From: Acidobacteriota bacterium
GTDB lineage: Bacteria; Acidobacteriota; Terriglobia; Terriglobales; Acidobacteriaceae
Assembly: GCA_021806005.1 (NCBI GenBank)
Contig: JAJZDM010000020.1
Location: 1 to 41,540 of the forward strand
DNA length: 41,540 bases
Direction of reading: 5' to 3'
This document shows, in pieces, positions 29,371-37,114 of this stretch. The translations under genes and the position numbers were made by a program. Each line of letters opens with the position of its first letter. Position 1 is the stretch's first letter. Under the pieces are notes generated by a model that worked only from the letters and a program-made list of their open reading frames with translations, made no database searches and was not told the origin of the DNA.

Positions 29371-31287
29371 ATGTCGATCGTTCGCCGCATCTCCCTGGCC
29401 GTACTGAGCGTCTCCACCCTTGCCGCTGCTGCTCAGTCCACTCCCATCAACCTCGCCGTCGATCTCACCGATGCCCCCCGCAAAATTCTGCACGCTACGG
29501 AGACCATCCCCGTCGCCTCCAACTCCCAGCCCATGCCAATGACCCTTGTCTATCCGGAGTGGATCCCCGGCGAACACGGCCCCACCGGGCCCATCATCAA
29601 CCAGGCCGGCTTCACCATCACTACCCCCAGCGGTCAGAGCATCAAGTGGGAGCGTGACCTGGTGGACATGTACAGCTATCACATCACGGTTCCAGCCGGC
29701 GTCTCGCAACTGGACGTCAAGATGGACTTCCTGGCCACCGGTTCCGGCAACTTCACCGAGGGCGGTTCCACCAGCGCCAACCTCGCACTGCTGAGCTGGA
29801 ATACCCTCCTGGTCTATCCCCTCAACGGAGACATCCAGCACACCAACGTCGATGACATCATGGTCACTCCCTCGATCACCATCCCCACAGGATGGCGCTT
29901 CGGCACCGCGCTGGAGCCTGCCAGTGGCGCTACAGAAGCCTCCTCGCATGTCGTCTTCCAGACGGTATCTCTCTGCCAACTCGTCGACTCGCCGGTCCTC
30001 TCCGGCCGCTACTTCCGCGAGATTGACCTCGCTCCCGACGTTACCCCGCATCACTACCTCGACCTGGCCGGTGACGGTCCAGAGGACATCGCACTCTCCC
30101 AGCAGCACATCGACCAGTTCTCCAAGCTGGTGCGCGAAACCGGACTTCTCTATCACTCACGCCACTACGGCTCCTACCACTTTCTGGTCACGCTCTCCGA
30201 TCAGGTCGCGCACTTCGGCCTCGAACACCATCAGTCCTCCGATGATCGCGTCTCGGAGAAGAGCTTCGTCGATGAGGGCATGTTCACGGAGGCCGGCGAT
30301 CTTTTGCCGCACGAGTTCACCCACTCCTGGAACGGCAAGTACCGCCGCCCCGCCGGTCTTGCCACCGCCAACTACCAGGAACCCATGAAGGGCGACCTCC
30401 TTTGGGTCTACGAGGGACTCACCAACTACCTGGGGGACATCCTCGCGGCCCGCTCCGGCATCTGGAGCCCCGAGGTCTTCCGCGATCGCCTCGCCACCAT
30501 TGCCGCCGACCTCAACGATGCTCGCCCTGGACGCACCTGGCGCGACCTGCAGGACACCGCCACCTCCGCGCAGATCCTCTATGACGCCGGCGGCTCGTAT
30601 GACAACTGGCGCCGCGACGTCGACTACTACAGCGAAGGCGACCTGCTTTGGCTCGAGATCGACGAGACCATCCGCGCCAAAACCAAAGGCAAAAAGAGCC
30701 TGAATAACTTTCTGGCGGCCTTTGAAGGTCTGGGAGGCAACACGCCTCCCACGGTCGTGCCTTACACCTTTGACGACATCGTCAACGGCCTCAATGCCGT
30801 CGTGCCCAGCGACTGGGCGACCTTCCTCCGGACCCGACTGGACTCCAACCAGTTTCACGCACCTGAGATCGCCGGCATCAACACCCTCTCCGGATACCAT
30901 CTCGTCTACACCAGTAAACCCAACTACTGGTCACAACTCAACGAGAGCGACGGGCTTGACGCAACCTACTCGCTCGGCTTCACCGTAAACTCAGCCGGGA
31001 CCATCGGCGACGTCATCATCGGCAGTGTCGGCTACAGCGCGGGCATGGCCCCAGGCTTCCGGATCCTGGCCGTCAACAACCGCGCCTTTACCCCTGGACT
31101 GCTGCGGGCAGCCATCGATGACGCCAAGGGCAACGGCCCGGCCATCAGCCTGATCGTCGAGAACACCGGCTACTTCAAAGTGATCAACATCAACTACCAC
31201 GATGGCGAACGCTACCCGCAACTGGAGCGTGTCGACAATACCCCCGATCGTCTCGACGACATCCTCGCCCCACTCTCCGGTCAGTAG
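29371..31287 (+). CDS. secreted M61-family (glycyl aminopeptidase-like) metallopeptidase
   Basis: AAGGAG ten bases upstream supports ATG 29371. A signal peptide (MSIVRRISLAVLSVSTLAAAAQS) directs export. The M61 catalytic domain shows the zinc motif HEFTHSW with H314 and H318, catalytic Glu315, the third ligand Glu348 in WVYEGLTNYLGD, and the preceding FGLEHHQSS. A PDZ-like C-terminal domain (YSLGFTVNSAGTIGDVI, SAGMAPGFRILAVNNRAF) completes the 638 aa. It should hydrolyse peptides in the periplasm or outside the cell. Its stop is followed by a strong hairpin at 31343-31372. Confidence 0.94.
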   Translation: MSIVRRISLAVLSVSTLAAAAQSTPINLAVDLTDAPRKILHATETIPVASNSQPMPMTLVYPEWIPGEHGPTGPIINQAGFTITTPSGQSIKWERDLVDMYSYHITVPAGVSQLDVKMDFLATGSGNFTEGGSTSANLALLSWNTLLVYPLNGDIQHTNVDDIMVTPSITIPTGWRFGTALEPASGATEASSHVVFQTVSLCQLVDSPVLSGRYFREIDLAPDVTPHHYLDLAGDGPEDIALSQQHIDQFSKLVRETGLLYHSRHYGSYHFLVTLSDQVAHFGLEHHQSSDDRVSEKSFVDEGMFTEAGDLLPHEFTHSWNGKYRRPAGLATANYQEPMKGDLLWVYEGLTNYLGDILAARSGIWSPEVFRDRLATIAADLNDARPGRTWRDLQDTATSAQILYDAGGSYDNWRRDVDYYSEGDLLWLEIDETIRAKTKGKKSLNNFLAAFEGLGGNTPPTVVPYTFDDIVNGLNAVVPSDWATFLRTRLDSNQFHAPEIAGINTLSGYHLVYTSKPNYWSQLNESDGLDATYSLGFTVNSAGTIGDVIIGSVGYSAGMAPGFRILAVNNRAFTPGLLRAAIDDAKGNGPAISLIVENTGYFKVININYHDGERYPQLERVDNTPDRLDDILAPLSGQ

Positions 31288-32451: not shown

Positions 32452-33014
32452 CTCCCGCTCTCCTCCCGTACCTGTCCGGCTCCCTGCGGTTGCTGGTCGC
32501 TCTGCGCCAGATCCAACTCCCATCGTAGATCTCTGCGCGCCTTGTCCCGGGCAGGTTCAGTGTGGGGGAAGAATAGCATCTGCGCTCATCGCACAGAATC
32601 CTCCCCCTATCGCATGGCAACCACTCCTCCGCCCTCGCACTTCGCCACCCGCTCCCTTTGGGACGTACCTGATTTGGTTCTTCCCCATCCAGAACTTCCT
32701 CGTGCAATGTGAAAGAGTGTCCTGTTTTACAACATCGCTAGAGAGTACTCGCGAAAGGTTCCTCGTACATTTGAATTACTTAATAGTTCCAACGGTTGGG
32801 ATGGTATTCTTGGCGCGACACCACTCGCTTTATGTGCCAGTTTTCATAAATGGAGACGGGCAAAGCTGCTGAATTGCTGAAAAATTCCTGGCAGGGGATC
32901 CTCCGCCGTCCGGTGCCGGGTTGCCATCGCCCTCATCTCGCCTGGGCAGCCGGCGCTGATCGACCAGGGGAACCAGCTTCTACTGTGAACTACCGGCCCT
33001 TGTTTGGAGGAATG
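32452..33014. other. long divergent intergenic region with AT-rich core
   Basis: This 563-base region separates the membrane protein (minus) from the Ig/NHL surface protein (plus). Bases from about 32700 to 32850 are markedly AT-richer than anything nearby and probably hold the promoters; TTCTTG-18-TATGTG at 32808-32837 is a weak candidate. The distal part forms a folded leader, described separately. In-frame starts further upstream (for example 32850) exist but lie within the apparent leader and lack ribosome sites. Confidence 0.55.
32821..32956 (+). promoter_or_regulatory. candidate structured 5' leader of the Ig/NHL surface-protein gene
   Basis: Three successive stem-loops can be drawn. 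TTTATG/CATAAA (32829-32834 with 32845-32850) is extended by CCA/TGG across a 5-base bulge. GAATT/AATTC (32871-32875 with 32883-32887) may be extended by TGC/GCA. GTGCCGG/CCGGCGC (32913-32919 with 32950-32956) has an inner TGCC/GGCA. The element contains GACGGGCAAAGC (32855-32866) and GCCGGGTTGCC (32915-32925), which resemble the second and last conserved strands of c-di-GMP-I (GEMM) riboswitches. The first GEMM strand is not found, so this class is not claimed. Confidence 0.35.
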
Positions 33015-36000
33015 ATGACTGTCTCGCTCCGCGGCAATCTTCTGAGCAGGCACGAAATCTCGCTCGCGGCAGCTCGCTCCTGGCTTCTGATCCTCTTGCT
33101 CGCCCTCTCGGCCATCTCCGCAGGGGCACAGGGCCTCTCCCCAAGTACCGCCATCAACTTCGGCAGCGTCAATCTTGGCGCCACCAGCACCTACCATCAG
33201 AACTTCACTGGCCCTGAGGGATCCGCCGGCGTCTCCATTCAGAGCGTCACAACGATCACCTACGGATCCCCCGACCAGGATTTCTCTGTCACCTCCACCA
33301 CCTGCACCGGTTCCACCATCACCTACCCGGATACCTGCGCGGTCAATCTCGCCTTCAAACCCAGTCAGATCGGGATCCGTCTGGGCGCGCTGCTCTTCAC
33401 CAATACCTCCGGCGTCATCGTCAACACCATCTACCTCGCCGGCGTCGGTGTCGGGCCGCAGATTGTCTTCTCGCCCGCCATGGCGGTTACCGTCAACAGC
33501 GCCGCTACCCTCAGCCCGGACGCCTTCACCTCCGGTGCCGCGGTTCAGGATGGAGTCGGGGATACCTTCTTCACGGATGTATCGGATAACCGCATCCTGG
33601 AAGAGTCTGCCGCCGGAGCCTTCTCGGTCGTCGCCTCCGGCAACCCGCTCAATCTCTCCGCCACCTCCGGTCTGGTCATCGACGGCGCCGGCAACCTCTA
33701 TGTCTCCTCCGGCGCCTCCGTCTATGAGATTCCCTACGGAACCTCCACCCCCACCGCGCTCACGCTTCCCAATGGCGTCACCCTCACCCAGCCCGCCGGC
33801 CTGGCCATCGACAACTCCGGTGATCTTTACATCGCCGACGCCAAGACCAACACCATCTATCAGGACGTGCTCGAAGGGGACCTGGTGACCGCGCTCAAGC
33901 TCACCGGCCCGGGCGCCAATCTCTCTGGCCCCACCGGCCTGGCCATCGACACGAACAACAACCTCTACGTCGCCGACACTGGCAACAGCCGCGTCGTCGA
34001 GTTCCCCATCACCACCCTCGCCACCACCGTTCTGAACCTGACCTCCCTCACGCTGAAGTCTCCCCTCGGCGTCGCCGTAGATGCCGCGGGCACCATCTAC
34101 ATCGCAGACACCGGCAACAGCCGGATCGTCGAGTCCACCGTCACCGGCGACCAGTTCGTCCTCAGCGCCTTTGCCGCTACCACTGCCAGCACCCAGACCT
34201 CCAGCACCCAGACTCCCTACACCCTGGAAGCCCCCGCTGGCATATTCATCGAGGGCAACGGCGACCTGATCCTCAGCGACACCGATCTCGGCCTCATCAC
34301 CATCCAGCGCTCTACCGCCACGGTCAACTTCCCCACTCCCACCGTCGTCGGCGACCTGGATAGCACCGATGACCCCGAACTTCTCACCGTCCAGGAGACC
34401 GGCAACGCCACCAGTTCTCTCAACGTCAGCCCTGACCCCAGCTTCAGCGGGGCCAACTCGGCGGCCTTCCTGCTTACCGGCAGCGGCAGCACCTGCCCCA
34501 CCGCCAACGGCGGTACCTTCGCCATCGGCCAGGTCTGCAACGTTGCCCTGGACTTCCAGCCCACCGTCGTCGGCCCCAACACCGCCAGCCTGCAGCTCAC
34601 CACCGCCGCTACCAGTGGCGCCTCCGGCACCTCCGGTACGGCATCGCTCTTTGGCATCGGACTCTCCAACGTGGCCTACTTCACTCTGGTTGCCACCCCT
34701 TCGACCATCGATAAGGGCAGCTCCGTCGAACTGGTCCTCACCGCTTATCAATCCAACGGCAGCATCGCTACTGACTTCTCCGGCAGCGTCACCTTCAGCT
34801 CCAGCGCCGGCAGCAACGGCGTCTTCCTGGGCGGGGTCACCTTCACCTTCCCCTCGGCCGACAACGGCGTGCTCACCATCCCCGCCGCATCCGGTCTTGA
34901 ACTCAACGCCTACGGCACCTATACCGCCACCGCTACGCTCTCCTCACCCTACATTCCCAGCGGTGTCGCCACCACAGTCACCAGCAACAACATCTACGTC
35001 GTCGAGCCCTCCACGCTCAACCTCACCAGCAGCGTGAACCCCTCGACCATCAATCAATCCACTACCTTCACCCTCACCATCAGCACCACCGGCACCGTAG
35101 CTCCGGGCGGCACCGTCTACTTCTACAACGGCGGCACCCTGATCGGCAGCTCCACCGTCGCAGATACCTCGGCCACCGTCGGCATCGCCAGCATCAATGA
35201 CAGCTTCCCGGCCTCCGGCTCGTATCCCATCAAGGCCGTCTACGTCAGCACCACCAACACCCAGGGCGGTACCGCCACCCTCACGCAGGTGGTCGGCGCC
35301 ACCACCTCGGTGCTACTCACCAGTTCGGTCAATCCCGTCGCCGTCAATGGCAGTACCACCCTCACCGCCACCGTTTCAGCCGCCTCCGGCACAGCCACGG
35401 GAACCATTACCTTCCAGAGCAACGGCGCAACCATCGGCACCGCCGCACTCAATGGCGGAGTCGCCGCGCTGGTCACCAGCTTTCCGCAGCCCGGCATCTA
35501 TAAGCTCACCGCGGTCTACTCTGGCAACGACCAGTCTTCCACCTCCAACACCGTCCTCGAAACCGTCCTCGGCACCGTCAACATCAGCCTTACCAGCTCG
35601 GTCAATCCCGTCTTCCTGGACAACCCCACCATCCTCACCGCGCTGCTTACCTCCGTCGTCACCGGAGCTGCGCCAACCGGAACCGTCACCTTCTTTGACG
35701 GCTCCACGCTCATCGGCTCGGGCGCGGTGGTCAACAGCGCGGTCAGCATCTCCGTCAGCTTCGTCTACGCCGGCACGCACAACATCACAGCCGTCTATTC
35801 GGGCAGCGCCGCCTACTCCGGGGCTACCTCACCCGCCTACTCCCAAACCGTAGCGGACTTCTCGCTCGCGGTCGCCTCGGGAGGCTCCAGCAGCGGATCC
35901 GTCATCGCCGGCGGCTCGCTCAGCTACCCGCTGGTCGTCACCCCCATCATCACCAGCACCCTGCCCGGCCCCATCACACTCACCTTCACAGGGCTGCCCA

Positions 36001-36398
36001 GTACCGTCACCGGGGCGCTCACACCCACCTCCATCACCTCCGGCTCCGGAACAACCCCGGTAGCCTTCGCGGTGGCAGCCGCCAACCTGCTGGCCTCACG
36101 CCTCCGGCGTTCCGAACCACACCACCCCGCGGCACGCTCTCGCTCTCCGCTCAGCTACATCCCGGCAACACTGGCCTTGGCGGCCCTCCCCCTCGCATGG
36201 TTCCGTCGCCGTAACCGCTTCGTCTCGCTCTTCGCCTCCCTCTGCCTGCTTCTGGCCATCACCACGGGCCTCTCCGGATGCATCTCGTCCGCCTCCAGCG
36301 GCTACTACGGCCAGACCCCGCAGACCTACAACCTCACTGTAACCGCAACCTCCGGCAACCTCTCCCGTTCCACTTACCTCAAGCTCACCGTCCAGTAA
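33015..36398 (+). CDS. large secreted NHL-repeat / Ig-like-repeat surface protein with C-terminal hydrophobic module
   Basis: ATG 33015 lies four bases after GGAGG (ATG 33012 is alternative), giving about 1127 aa. A signal peptide ends near SAGAQG. An abnormal-spindle/choice-of-anchor-D-like beta domain follows (INFGSVNLGATSTYHQNF, CAVNLAFKPSQIGIRLGAL). Five or so NHL propeller units are visible (GLAIDTNNNLYVADTGNSRVVEF, GVAVDAAGTIYIADTGNSRIVE). Then come a second anchor-D-like domain and three bacterial Ig-like repeats of about 95 aa, each starting near LTSSVNP and containing GTVTFFDGSTLIGS or a variant. The final domain is interrupted by two hydrophobic segments with basic clusters and LSGC before the last strands (TYNLTVTATSGNLSRS). 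Such proteins are thought to be adhesive or scaffold surface proteins. A beta-barrel gene follows after 17 bases. Confidence 0.88.
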   Translation: MTVSLRGNLLSRHEISLAAARSWLLILLLALSAISAGAQGLSPSTAINFGSVNLGATSTYHQNFTGPEGSAGVSIQSVTTITYGSPDQDFSVTSTTCTGSTITYPDTCAVNLAFKPSQIGIRLGALLFTNTSGVIVNTIYLAGVGVGPQIVFSPAMAVTVNSAATLSPDAFTSGAAVQDGVGDTFFTDVSDNRILEESAAGAFSVVASGNPLNLSATSGLVIDGAGNLYVSSGASVYEIPYGTSTPTALTLPNGVTLTQPAGLAIDNSGDLYIADAKTNTIYQDVLEGDLVTALKLTGPGANLSGPTGLAIDTNNNLYVADTGNSRVVEFPITTLATTVLNLTSLTLKSPLGVAVDAAGTIYIADTGNSRIVESTVTGDQFVLSAFAATTASTQTSSTQTPYTLEAPAGIFIEGNGDLILSDTDLGLITIQRSTATVNFPTPTVVGDLDSTDDPELLTVQETGNATSSLNVSPDPSFSGANSAAFLLTGSGSTCPTANGGTFAIGQVCNVALDFQPTVVGPNTASLQLTTAATSGASGTSGTASLFGIGLSNVAYFTLVATPSTIDKGSSVELVLTAYQSNGSIATDFSGSVTFSSSAGSNGVFLGGVTFTFPSADNGVLTIPAASGLELNAYGTYTATATLSSPYIPSGVATTVTSNNIYVVEPSTLNLTSSVNPSTINQSTTFTLTISTTGTVAPGGTVYFYNGGTLIGSSTVADTSATVGIASINDSFPASGSYPIKAVYVSTTNTQGGTATLTQVVGATTSVLLTSSVNPVAVNGSTTLTATVSAASGTATGTITFQSNGATIGTAALNGGVAALVTSFPQPGIYKLTAVYSGNDQSSTSNTVLETVLGTVNISLTSSVNPVFLDNPTILTALLTSVVTGAAPTGTVTFFDGSTLIGSGAVVNSAVSISVSFVYAGTHNITAVYSGSAAYSGATSPAYSQTVADFSLAVASGGSSSGSVIAGGSLSYPLVVTPIITSTLPGPITLTFTGLPSTVTGALTPTSITSGSGTTPVAFAVAAANLLASRLRRSEPHHPAARSRSPLSYIPATLALAALPLAWFRRRNRFVSLFASLCLLLAITTGLSGCISSASSGYYGQTPQTYNLTVTATSGNLSRSTYLKLTVQ

Positions 36399-36415: not shown

Positions 36416-37114
36416 ATGCGCCATACCGCTACAGCAAAACCAGGGTGGATGCTCCCCGGCCAAACAAGAGCCGGCAGCATCCACCGTGCGCTGGGCACGC
36501 TCTGCCGCTCCTGGCGCCTCACCGTATCAAGACGAGTTGTGCTCGCCTTCCTTGCCTTGCCGCTGGCCTCGGTCCCGTCGCACACCCATGCCCAGACCCC
36601 CATGGATCTGGGTATGACCTACACCCAGCAGCGCTCCAAGTTCGTCGGGTCCTCGCCAACGGATTACTTCTATCTGCGCGGAGCCACCGTGGATCTGGCC
36701 TACTATCCCTTCCACGGCTTCGGACCGGTCGTCTCGCTTAACGGCCTGGCGGTCACCAACCTGCGCGGCCAGATCGATATCCACCAGGCCAGCTTTCTCG
36801 GCGGCGGACGGTACACCTTCAACCTGGGGCACATCTCGCCAACCCTCTGGAGCCGCCGCGGCGGCATCTTTGCGGAGGCCCTGGTCGGCCTTACCGATGC
36901 CACCGACGGTGAGTATCCCTCCGGCAACACCCTGGTGAGCACGGCCTATGGCTATACCTACGCCCTCGGCGGCGGCATCAACTACAACATCTATCACCGC
37001 TTTGAGCTGCGCCTGATGAGCCACTACTTTGTCACCGACCTCCCCAACGGCGGCAGCAAACAGCAGAAAAACATCCAGGTGAGCGCCGGCGTCAACTGGC
37101 ACTTCGGCAACTAG
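36416..37114 (+). CDS. outer-membrane beta-barrel protein (OmpA/OmpW-like)
   Basis: AGGAG lies eleven bases before ATG 36416, 17 bases after the surface-protein stop, so the two are co-transcribed. The 232-aa protein has a long N-region (about 45 residues, unusual for a signal peptide) before the hydrophobic VVLAFLALPLASVPSHTHAQ. The mature part alternates polar and non-polar residues as in small 8-strand barrels: DYFYLRGATVDLAYYPFHGFGPVVSLNG, ASFLGGGRYTFNLG, GIFAEALVGLTDA, YTYALGGGINYNIYHRFELRLMSHYFVTDL, and a C-terminal strand VSAGVNWHFGN. It probably sits in the outer membrane; a role in anchoring or exporting the preceding surface protein is suggested only by position. Confidence 0.85.
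   Translation: MRHTATAKPGWMLPGQTRAGSIHRALGTLCRSWRLTVSRRVVLAFLALPLASVPSHTHAQTPMDLGMTYTQQRSKFVGSSPTDYFYLRGATVDLAYYPFHGFGPVVSLNGLAVTNLRGQIDIHQASFLGGGRYTFNLGHISPTLWSRRGGIFAEALVGLTDATDGEYPSGNTLVSTAYGYTYALGGGINYNIYHRFELRLMSHYFVTDLPNGGSKQQKNIQVSAGVNWHFGN

Follow-up and report, generated by a model that had tools for sequence, protein, structure and literature searches.

A putative C-terminal anchoring module, predicted as an Ig-like domain split by a membrane hairpin and an internal lipobox, in surface proteins of an acidobacterial family

Why should the last domain of a large surface protein be broken, just before its end, by two hydrophobic segments of which the second closes with a lipobox? The question is raised by a stretch of 41,540 nucleotides (positions 1 to 41,540 of contig JAJZDM010000020.1, assembly GCA_021806005.1, from an Acidobacteriota bacterium of the Acidobacteriaceae), here called the window, in which an open reading frame (ORF) at 32850-36398 on the forward strand encodes 1182 amino acids (aa) with NHL repeats and three Big_3_5 Ig repeats, as named by Pfam. 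Its terminal module runs in the order helix, Arg cluster, helix, Cys and strands, and what follows LSGC up to the stop reads TYNLTVTATSGNLSRSTYLKLTVQ. An earlier note on this DNA had described a split beta domain, an Arg cluster flanked by two hydrophobic segments, and an end resembling a lipobox, all of which the sequence bears out. We think, with a probability of about 0.58, that the module is a C-terminal anchor in which an Ig-like domain is interrupted before its last two strands by a hairpin with an internal type II signal.

The earlier note also supposed that the device was undescribed, and this has to be given up, as the NCBIfam model NF058595, "lipo-invert putative C-terminal anchoring domain", covers it. 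Against a cut-off of 37 bits the whole window protein scores 51.9 and its terminal 180 aa 56.1, and the match takes in model positions 17-113 of 113, hairpin included, and reaches the C-terminus at residue 1182 of 1182. Judged by this sequence match, the window module belongs to the family already catalogued as NF058595. That family is known to us from the title of the model alone, which itself says "putative" for the anchoring; the split Ig domain, its uninterrupted copies and the proposal of two chains are readings of the present analysis. A literature search on lipo-invert, invert_tail, inverted lipobox or NF058595 found no publication, and searches on an internal type II signal or a split Ig anchor gave nothing on point. 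The module is real, conserved and already catalogued, and its mechanism is putative.

The conservation is seen in 111 members that were read among the matches listed, eleven from the genome of the window (of which two score less than the cut-off) and 100 from places in 14 relatives. The layout of the ending is kept in all 111 as extracted, and so is the lipobox Cys; an alignment shows that the window ending is also kept among its orthologues, of which those named sit on contigs labelled Granulicella or Acidobacteria bacterium. The expectation that such endings recur in other acidobacterial Ig-repeat proteins is thus confirmed by the members read, and the segments, the Arg cluster and the Cys, whose lack of conservation in homologues would have counted against the earlier note, are conserved. 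In an alignment of 101 members (A1, where the window stands for L012) columns average 18% identity and no column except that of the Cys is invariant; the Cys stands alone in this way in 66 core modules too, and the ten members left out of A1 (L013, L016, L115, L135, L141, L144, L145, L146, L147 and L153) have the Cys too. In a MAFFT alignment (A4) L176 and L177 (ACGG and SCGG) are shifted, so that the Cys column there is not invariant throughout.

The surroundings of the Cys are also kept. The fair count of the residue before it comes from the 53 members with a single Cys in their last 105 aa, where it is Gly in 35, Ala in 10 and Ser in 8; otherwise the script's choice of Cys favoured a small preceding residue, and the count for all 111, which this choice favours, is 86 Gly, 14 Ala and 11 Ser, against 32% for the three together in the segment. 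In 108 of the 111, the 16-residue stretch that closes with the last residue before the Cys to be charged or His contains at least three Arg or Lys, and in the remaining three (L016, L075, L079), where a Glu or His near the Cys halted the parser, the basic cluster is present by eye. The stretch after the Cys is 26-83 aa long, with a median of 44, in the 111 members. The split-domain unit may stand alone, because two frames of 215 and 220 aa in genome G007 (L212, L213) seem to consist of hardly more than one split domain and a signal peptide.

That a domain has been split can be seen from copies of it that are not. A profile with the two flanks joined gave 288 domain matches in the DNA analysed, 73 of them full-span, a figure in which overlapping loci count some places twice; 35 were without insert (-15 to +9 aa; two of these, L002 and L011, are weak) and 38 with one (+44 to +93), and no full-span match had an insert length between +9 and +44 aa. 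The match ended within 3 aa of the end of the frame in 37 of the 38 with insert and in 1 of the 35 without, and immediately ahead of the split copy there are tandem uninterrupted ones, e.g. in L036 and L064. The domain that takes the insertion also exists in whole form. Various Ig-type Pfam models match its uninterrupted copies, NPCBM_assoc below its cut-off, and no Pfam model came above its own cut-off on the split copies scanned. Natural fission of the module into two genes was not seen among the short-frame matches opened.

The AlphaFold models of the window domain (mean predicted local distance difference test, pLDDT, 68.6) and of L177 (57.4) both have six strands, two main helices and two final strands, and the strands flanking the insert are predicted to form one Ig-type domain, in keeping with the shared domain that the earlier note had supposed. 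Both halves of the split domain match the Ig-like linker domain of the Micromonospora viridifaciens sialidase (1eut, 2ber) over its contiguous residues 404-502, the model of the window domain aligning to residues 405-502 of 2ber (Z 9.5, root-mean-square deviation 2.6, 95 aligned) and that of L177, again with both halves, to residues 404-502 (Z 11.0, 2.4, 98 aligned). The sialidase domain, unlike the split one, is without insertion, the identity is about 18%, and the shared fold shows no shared function. The match indicates the class of fold only, because numerous unrelated chains of Ig-like fold come close to the top score, at a distance of about 2.5 Z or less. Plain Foldseek gave weaker matches (best expect value, E, 3.8e-4; query TM-score 0.39), and a sequence search of solved structures with A4 had no match at E up to 1.

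How such a module could work is something we infer in its topology, lipidation, cleavage and retention of the tail. Basic clusters stay in the cytoplasm by the positive-inside rule. Segment 1 would stop translocation and the Arg cluster would remain cytoplasmic, so that both ends of the hairpin would face outward and the Cys would lie where Lgt and LspA act. Segment 2 would cross the membrane again and serve as a lipoprotein signal; at the outer face Lgt would then modify the Cys with diacylglycerol, and a cut by LspA between Gly and Cys would probably follow. After cleavage the short lipidated tail would stay folded as the last two Ig strands, and the large N-terminal part would be held by the lipid anchor on the complementing beta-hairpin; the helical hairpin, if retained, would be a second anchor. 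The end product, a two-chain protein in which an LspA cut at the internal lipobox leaves a short lipidated beta-hairpin to complement an incomplete Ig domain and to hold the large surface protein non-covalently, is a tentative proposal that we do not favour beyond its being plausible.

With ordinary lipoproteins (type II, Lgt/LspA) the module shares a basic n-region, an h-region and a lipobox with Gly, Ala or Ser before the Cys, which in the window are RRRNR, an 18-residue segment and LSGC, and often also a Gly/Ser-rich stretch after the Cys. Unlike theirs, its signal is internal, with an entire exported protein and the first of the two hydrophobic segments ahead of it, and the part after the Cys is short; the N-terminus of the window protein is type I-like by eye.

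Several points weigh against this reading. Most members were picked by a profile containing the Cys, and a tail-only profile of the last 32 residues (A5), run on three genomes as a check on this selection, was built from rows of the same members. The outcome of this check nevertheless speaks for the reading: of 36 matches 22 were chain-terminal, with hairpin and Cys in 20 of these, and 12 internal, with a hairpin in none. The two terminal exceptions (L202, which is L029, and L207) are chains that end with the final strand pair and have no hairpin; three of the 22 (L198, L204, L202) were internal under the script's 6-aa rule and were reclassed as terminal by hand, and two weak matches were set aside (L210, which lies in an unrelated frame of Ig repeats and has no hairpin, and L211, where the match runs on across a stop). 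At position -3 the likeness to a lipobox is loose, with Leu in 47 of 111 and Leu, Ala, Met, Val or Ile in 91, and in 400 kb of a relative there are seven N-terminal lipoprotein-like ORFs for lipobox comparison, several of them doubtful. The structural models are of moderate to low confidence, weak in helices and linkers, and strand pairing was not taken from coordinates; the crowd of near-equal structural matches belongs here as well. An LspA gene is found in 15 of 15 genomes searched, weak evidence as LspA occurs in most bacteria. Lipidation by Lgt and cleavage by LspA at the window Cys are putative, and no case is known to us in which LspA cuts a signal lying behind another membrane segment.

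Chance, at least, is not the explanation. A topology scan that was blind to Cys gave a single match in 278 frames of at least 150 aa in the same 400 kb, and this match is a Cys-bearing member; the scan took in no frames running off the stretch, which is probably how it missed the member known from L204, whose frame there has 7410 aa. The hairpin topology and the ending of the module are not due to chance, because they are kept in orthologues and in all 111 members and the scan hit one member only.

The alternative that survives best is that the hairpin is never cut. The two helices would then hold the Ig domain at the inner membrane, with the Cys lipidated without cleavage or serving some other role. 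The hairpin alone would anchor the protein, and a single chain accounts for the split domain with no need of a two-chain product, the cleavage being putative. By itself, however, this leaves unexplained why the Cys is the sole invariant residue and is preceded only by Gly, Ala or Ser, and we consider it unlikely, if still worth keeping in mind. Far less probable is a sorting system of the MYXO-CTERM kind, with a CPBP/myxosortase-type enzyme acting at a lipidated Cys. According to PMC11980579, MYXO-CTERM (TIGR03901) likewise combines an invariant Cys, a membrane helix, an Arg cluster and a proposed lipidation, but there the Cys of the C-terminal signal comes before the helix and an Arg-rich cluster ends the chain. 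In the module the Arg cluster lies ahead of the Cys-ended helix and the strands come last, so that the window does not show the order of Cys, helix and Arg-rich end by that definition, and the Cys is placed as in ordinary lipoproteins.

The earlier note had likened segment 1 and the Arg cluster to a PEP-CTERM tag, which an exosortase would process. The likeness lies in an Arg cluster that comes after a hydrophobic segment close to the C-terminus, and an exosortase is found in the genome of the window as well as in 13 of the 15 family genomes searched (the match in G139 is weak). The module is not at the end of the chain, however, and we reject this reading as barely credible, as the PEP motif is absent near or before segment 1 in all members (0 of 111) and the module is present in two of the 15 genomes, the drafts G007 and G023, both estimated to be 100% complete, which have no exosortase match at E up to 1e-5 and in which 7 and 5 modules, respectively, were read. 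The fusion of an Ig-repeat gene with a lipoprotein gene through an error of sequencing or assembly would look just like a lipoprotein-like signal within an ORF, but it is refuted, to practical certainty, by the same layout in nine orthologues from separate assemblies and in the nine over-threshold copies of this genome.

We return to the anchor with an internal type II signal and to how far it is spread. In the genome of the window nine places are above the cut-off of NF058595, with hairpin and Cys in all nine. In the phylum 17 of 149 genomes exceed it, 15 of the same family together with G066 and G137, whose matches, once read, are not modules: L214 proves to be a lipoprotein of the ordinary N-terminal kind and L215 a set of Ig repeats without interruption. 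None of 14 control genomes from other phyla came above the cut-off. NF058595 thus seems too permissive at 37 bits, which also counts against the reading; five over-cut-off places opened are without split module, L214 and the uninterrupted Ig repeats L215-L218, and the cut-off alone is no proof of a hairpin because L216, L217 and L218, within the family, reach it as uninterrupted repeats. It speaks for the reading, on the other hand, that the part of the model from segment 2 to the Cys also matches ordinary N-terminal lipoprotein signals (L214, G094:C1:2102641).

A profile of the module core (A6), with 13 candidates scored per genome, matches 44 of 44 sampled genomes of the family (E <= 1e-4), with from at least 2 to at least 13 matches each, and when the genomes without a match are sorted by kinship they start with another family. 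Modules were read in 32 of the 44, i.e. the genome of the window, the 14 relatives, 16 more and G321; the 16 come from 29 A6-matched loci, all of which carry hairpin and Cys and extend to the stop or to no more than 3 aa from it. The module is spread over this acidobacterial family. Outside it 91 of 352 genomes match A6, mostly weakly, and the one such match opened, in G216 of family f41, is a true split module (L273).

The features of the gene are collected in Table 1. The true start of the surface protein is likely the ATG at 33012, after TTTGGAGGA (which contains GGAGGA), because the 54 aa upstream are poorly conserved among orthologues relative to the sequence downstream and are followed by a type I-like signal peptide; this signal peptide was judged by eye and from orthologues, without a signal-peptide predictor.

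Table 1. Features of the surface-protein gene and its terminal module (window positions).
Feature	Positions	Strand	Basis or remark
Surface protein with NHL and Ig repeats	33012..36398	+	likely true start 33012; ORF opens 32850; GGAGGA before ATG 33012; orthologues
N-terminal signal peptide, type I-like, ending AISAGAQG	33012..33134	+	by eye; orthologues
Terminal Ig-like domain, first part, six predicted strands	35856..36086	+	structure model, sequence
Basic linker preceding hydrophobic segment 1, variable in sequence and length	36087..36155	+	alignment, sequence
Hydrophobic segment 1, YIPATLALAALPLAWF	36156..36203	+	member comparison, model, sequence
RRRNR cluster; putative cytoplasmic loop and n-region of segment 2	36204..36218	+	member comparison, alignment, sequence
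Hydrophobic segment 2, FVSLFASLCLLLAITTGL, 18 residues; putative h-region of internal type II-like signal	36219..36272	+	member comparison, model, sequence
Lipobox LSGC, Cys codon 36279-36281	36270..36281	+	only invariant column, 101 aligned members
Tether following Cys, ISSASSGYYGQTPQ	36282..36323	+	alignment, sequence
Last two strands, predicted to complete the Ig-like domain	36324..36395	+	model, uninterrupted homologues, sequence
NF058595 (invert_tail) match, 57.9 bits, cut-off 37	36117..36395	+	profile search

Directly 3' of the split-domain gene lies a gene at 36416-37111 (+), whose product of 232 aa bears a signal peptide by eye and weakly matches an outer-membrane beta-barrel model (14.3 bits against a cut-off of 60). 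It follows the split-domain gene in 9 of 11 related loci (L167-L175), and a relative of its product, 27% identical, adjoins another module member in L058; the two proteins may act together. As a general partner of the module this neighbour has been rejected, since among the loci compared it is found only beside orthologues and at one other locus. On the same strand as the surface protein, at 29371-31287 (+), is a gene for an M61 glycyl aminopeptidase-like protein with a weak PDZ match.

What can be said for the family is that the module core is matched in every one of its sampled genomes and the module itself has been read in most of them. If the internal lipobox is used, the lipoprotein enzymes act on signals far from the N-terminus, and the number of lipoproteins in these bacteria is underestimated. 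Completing an Ig domain with a lipidated pair of strands would, if true, be a new way of fastening large surface proteins.

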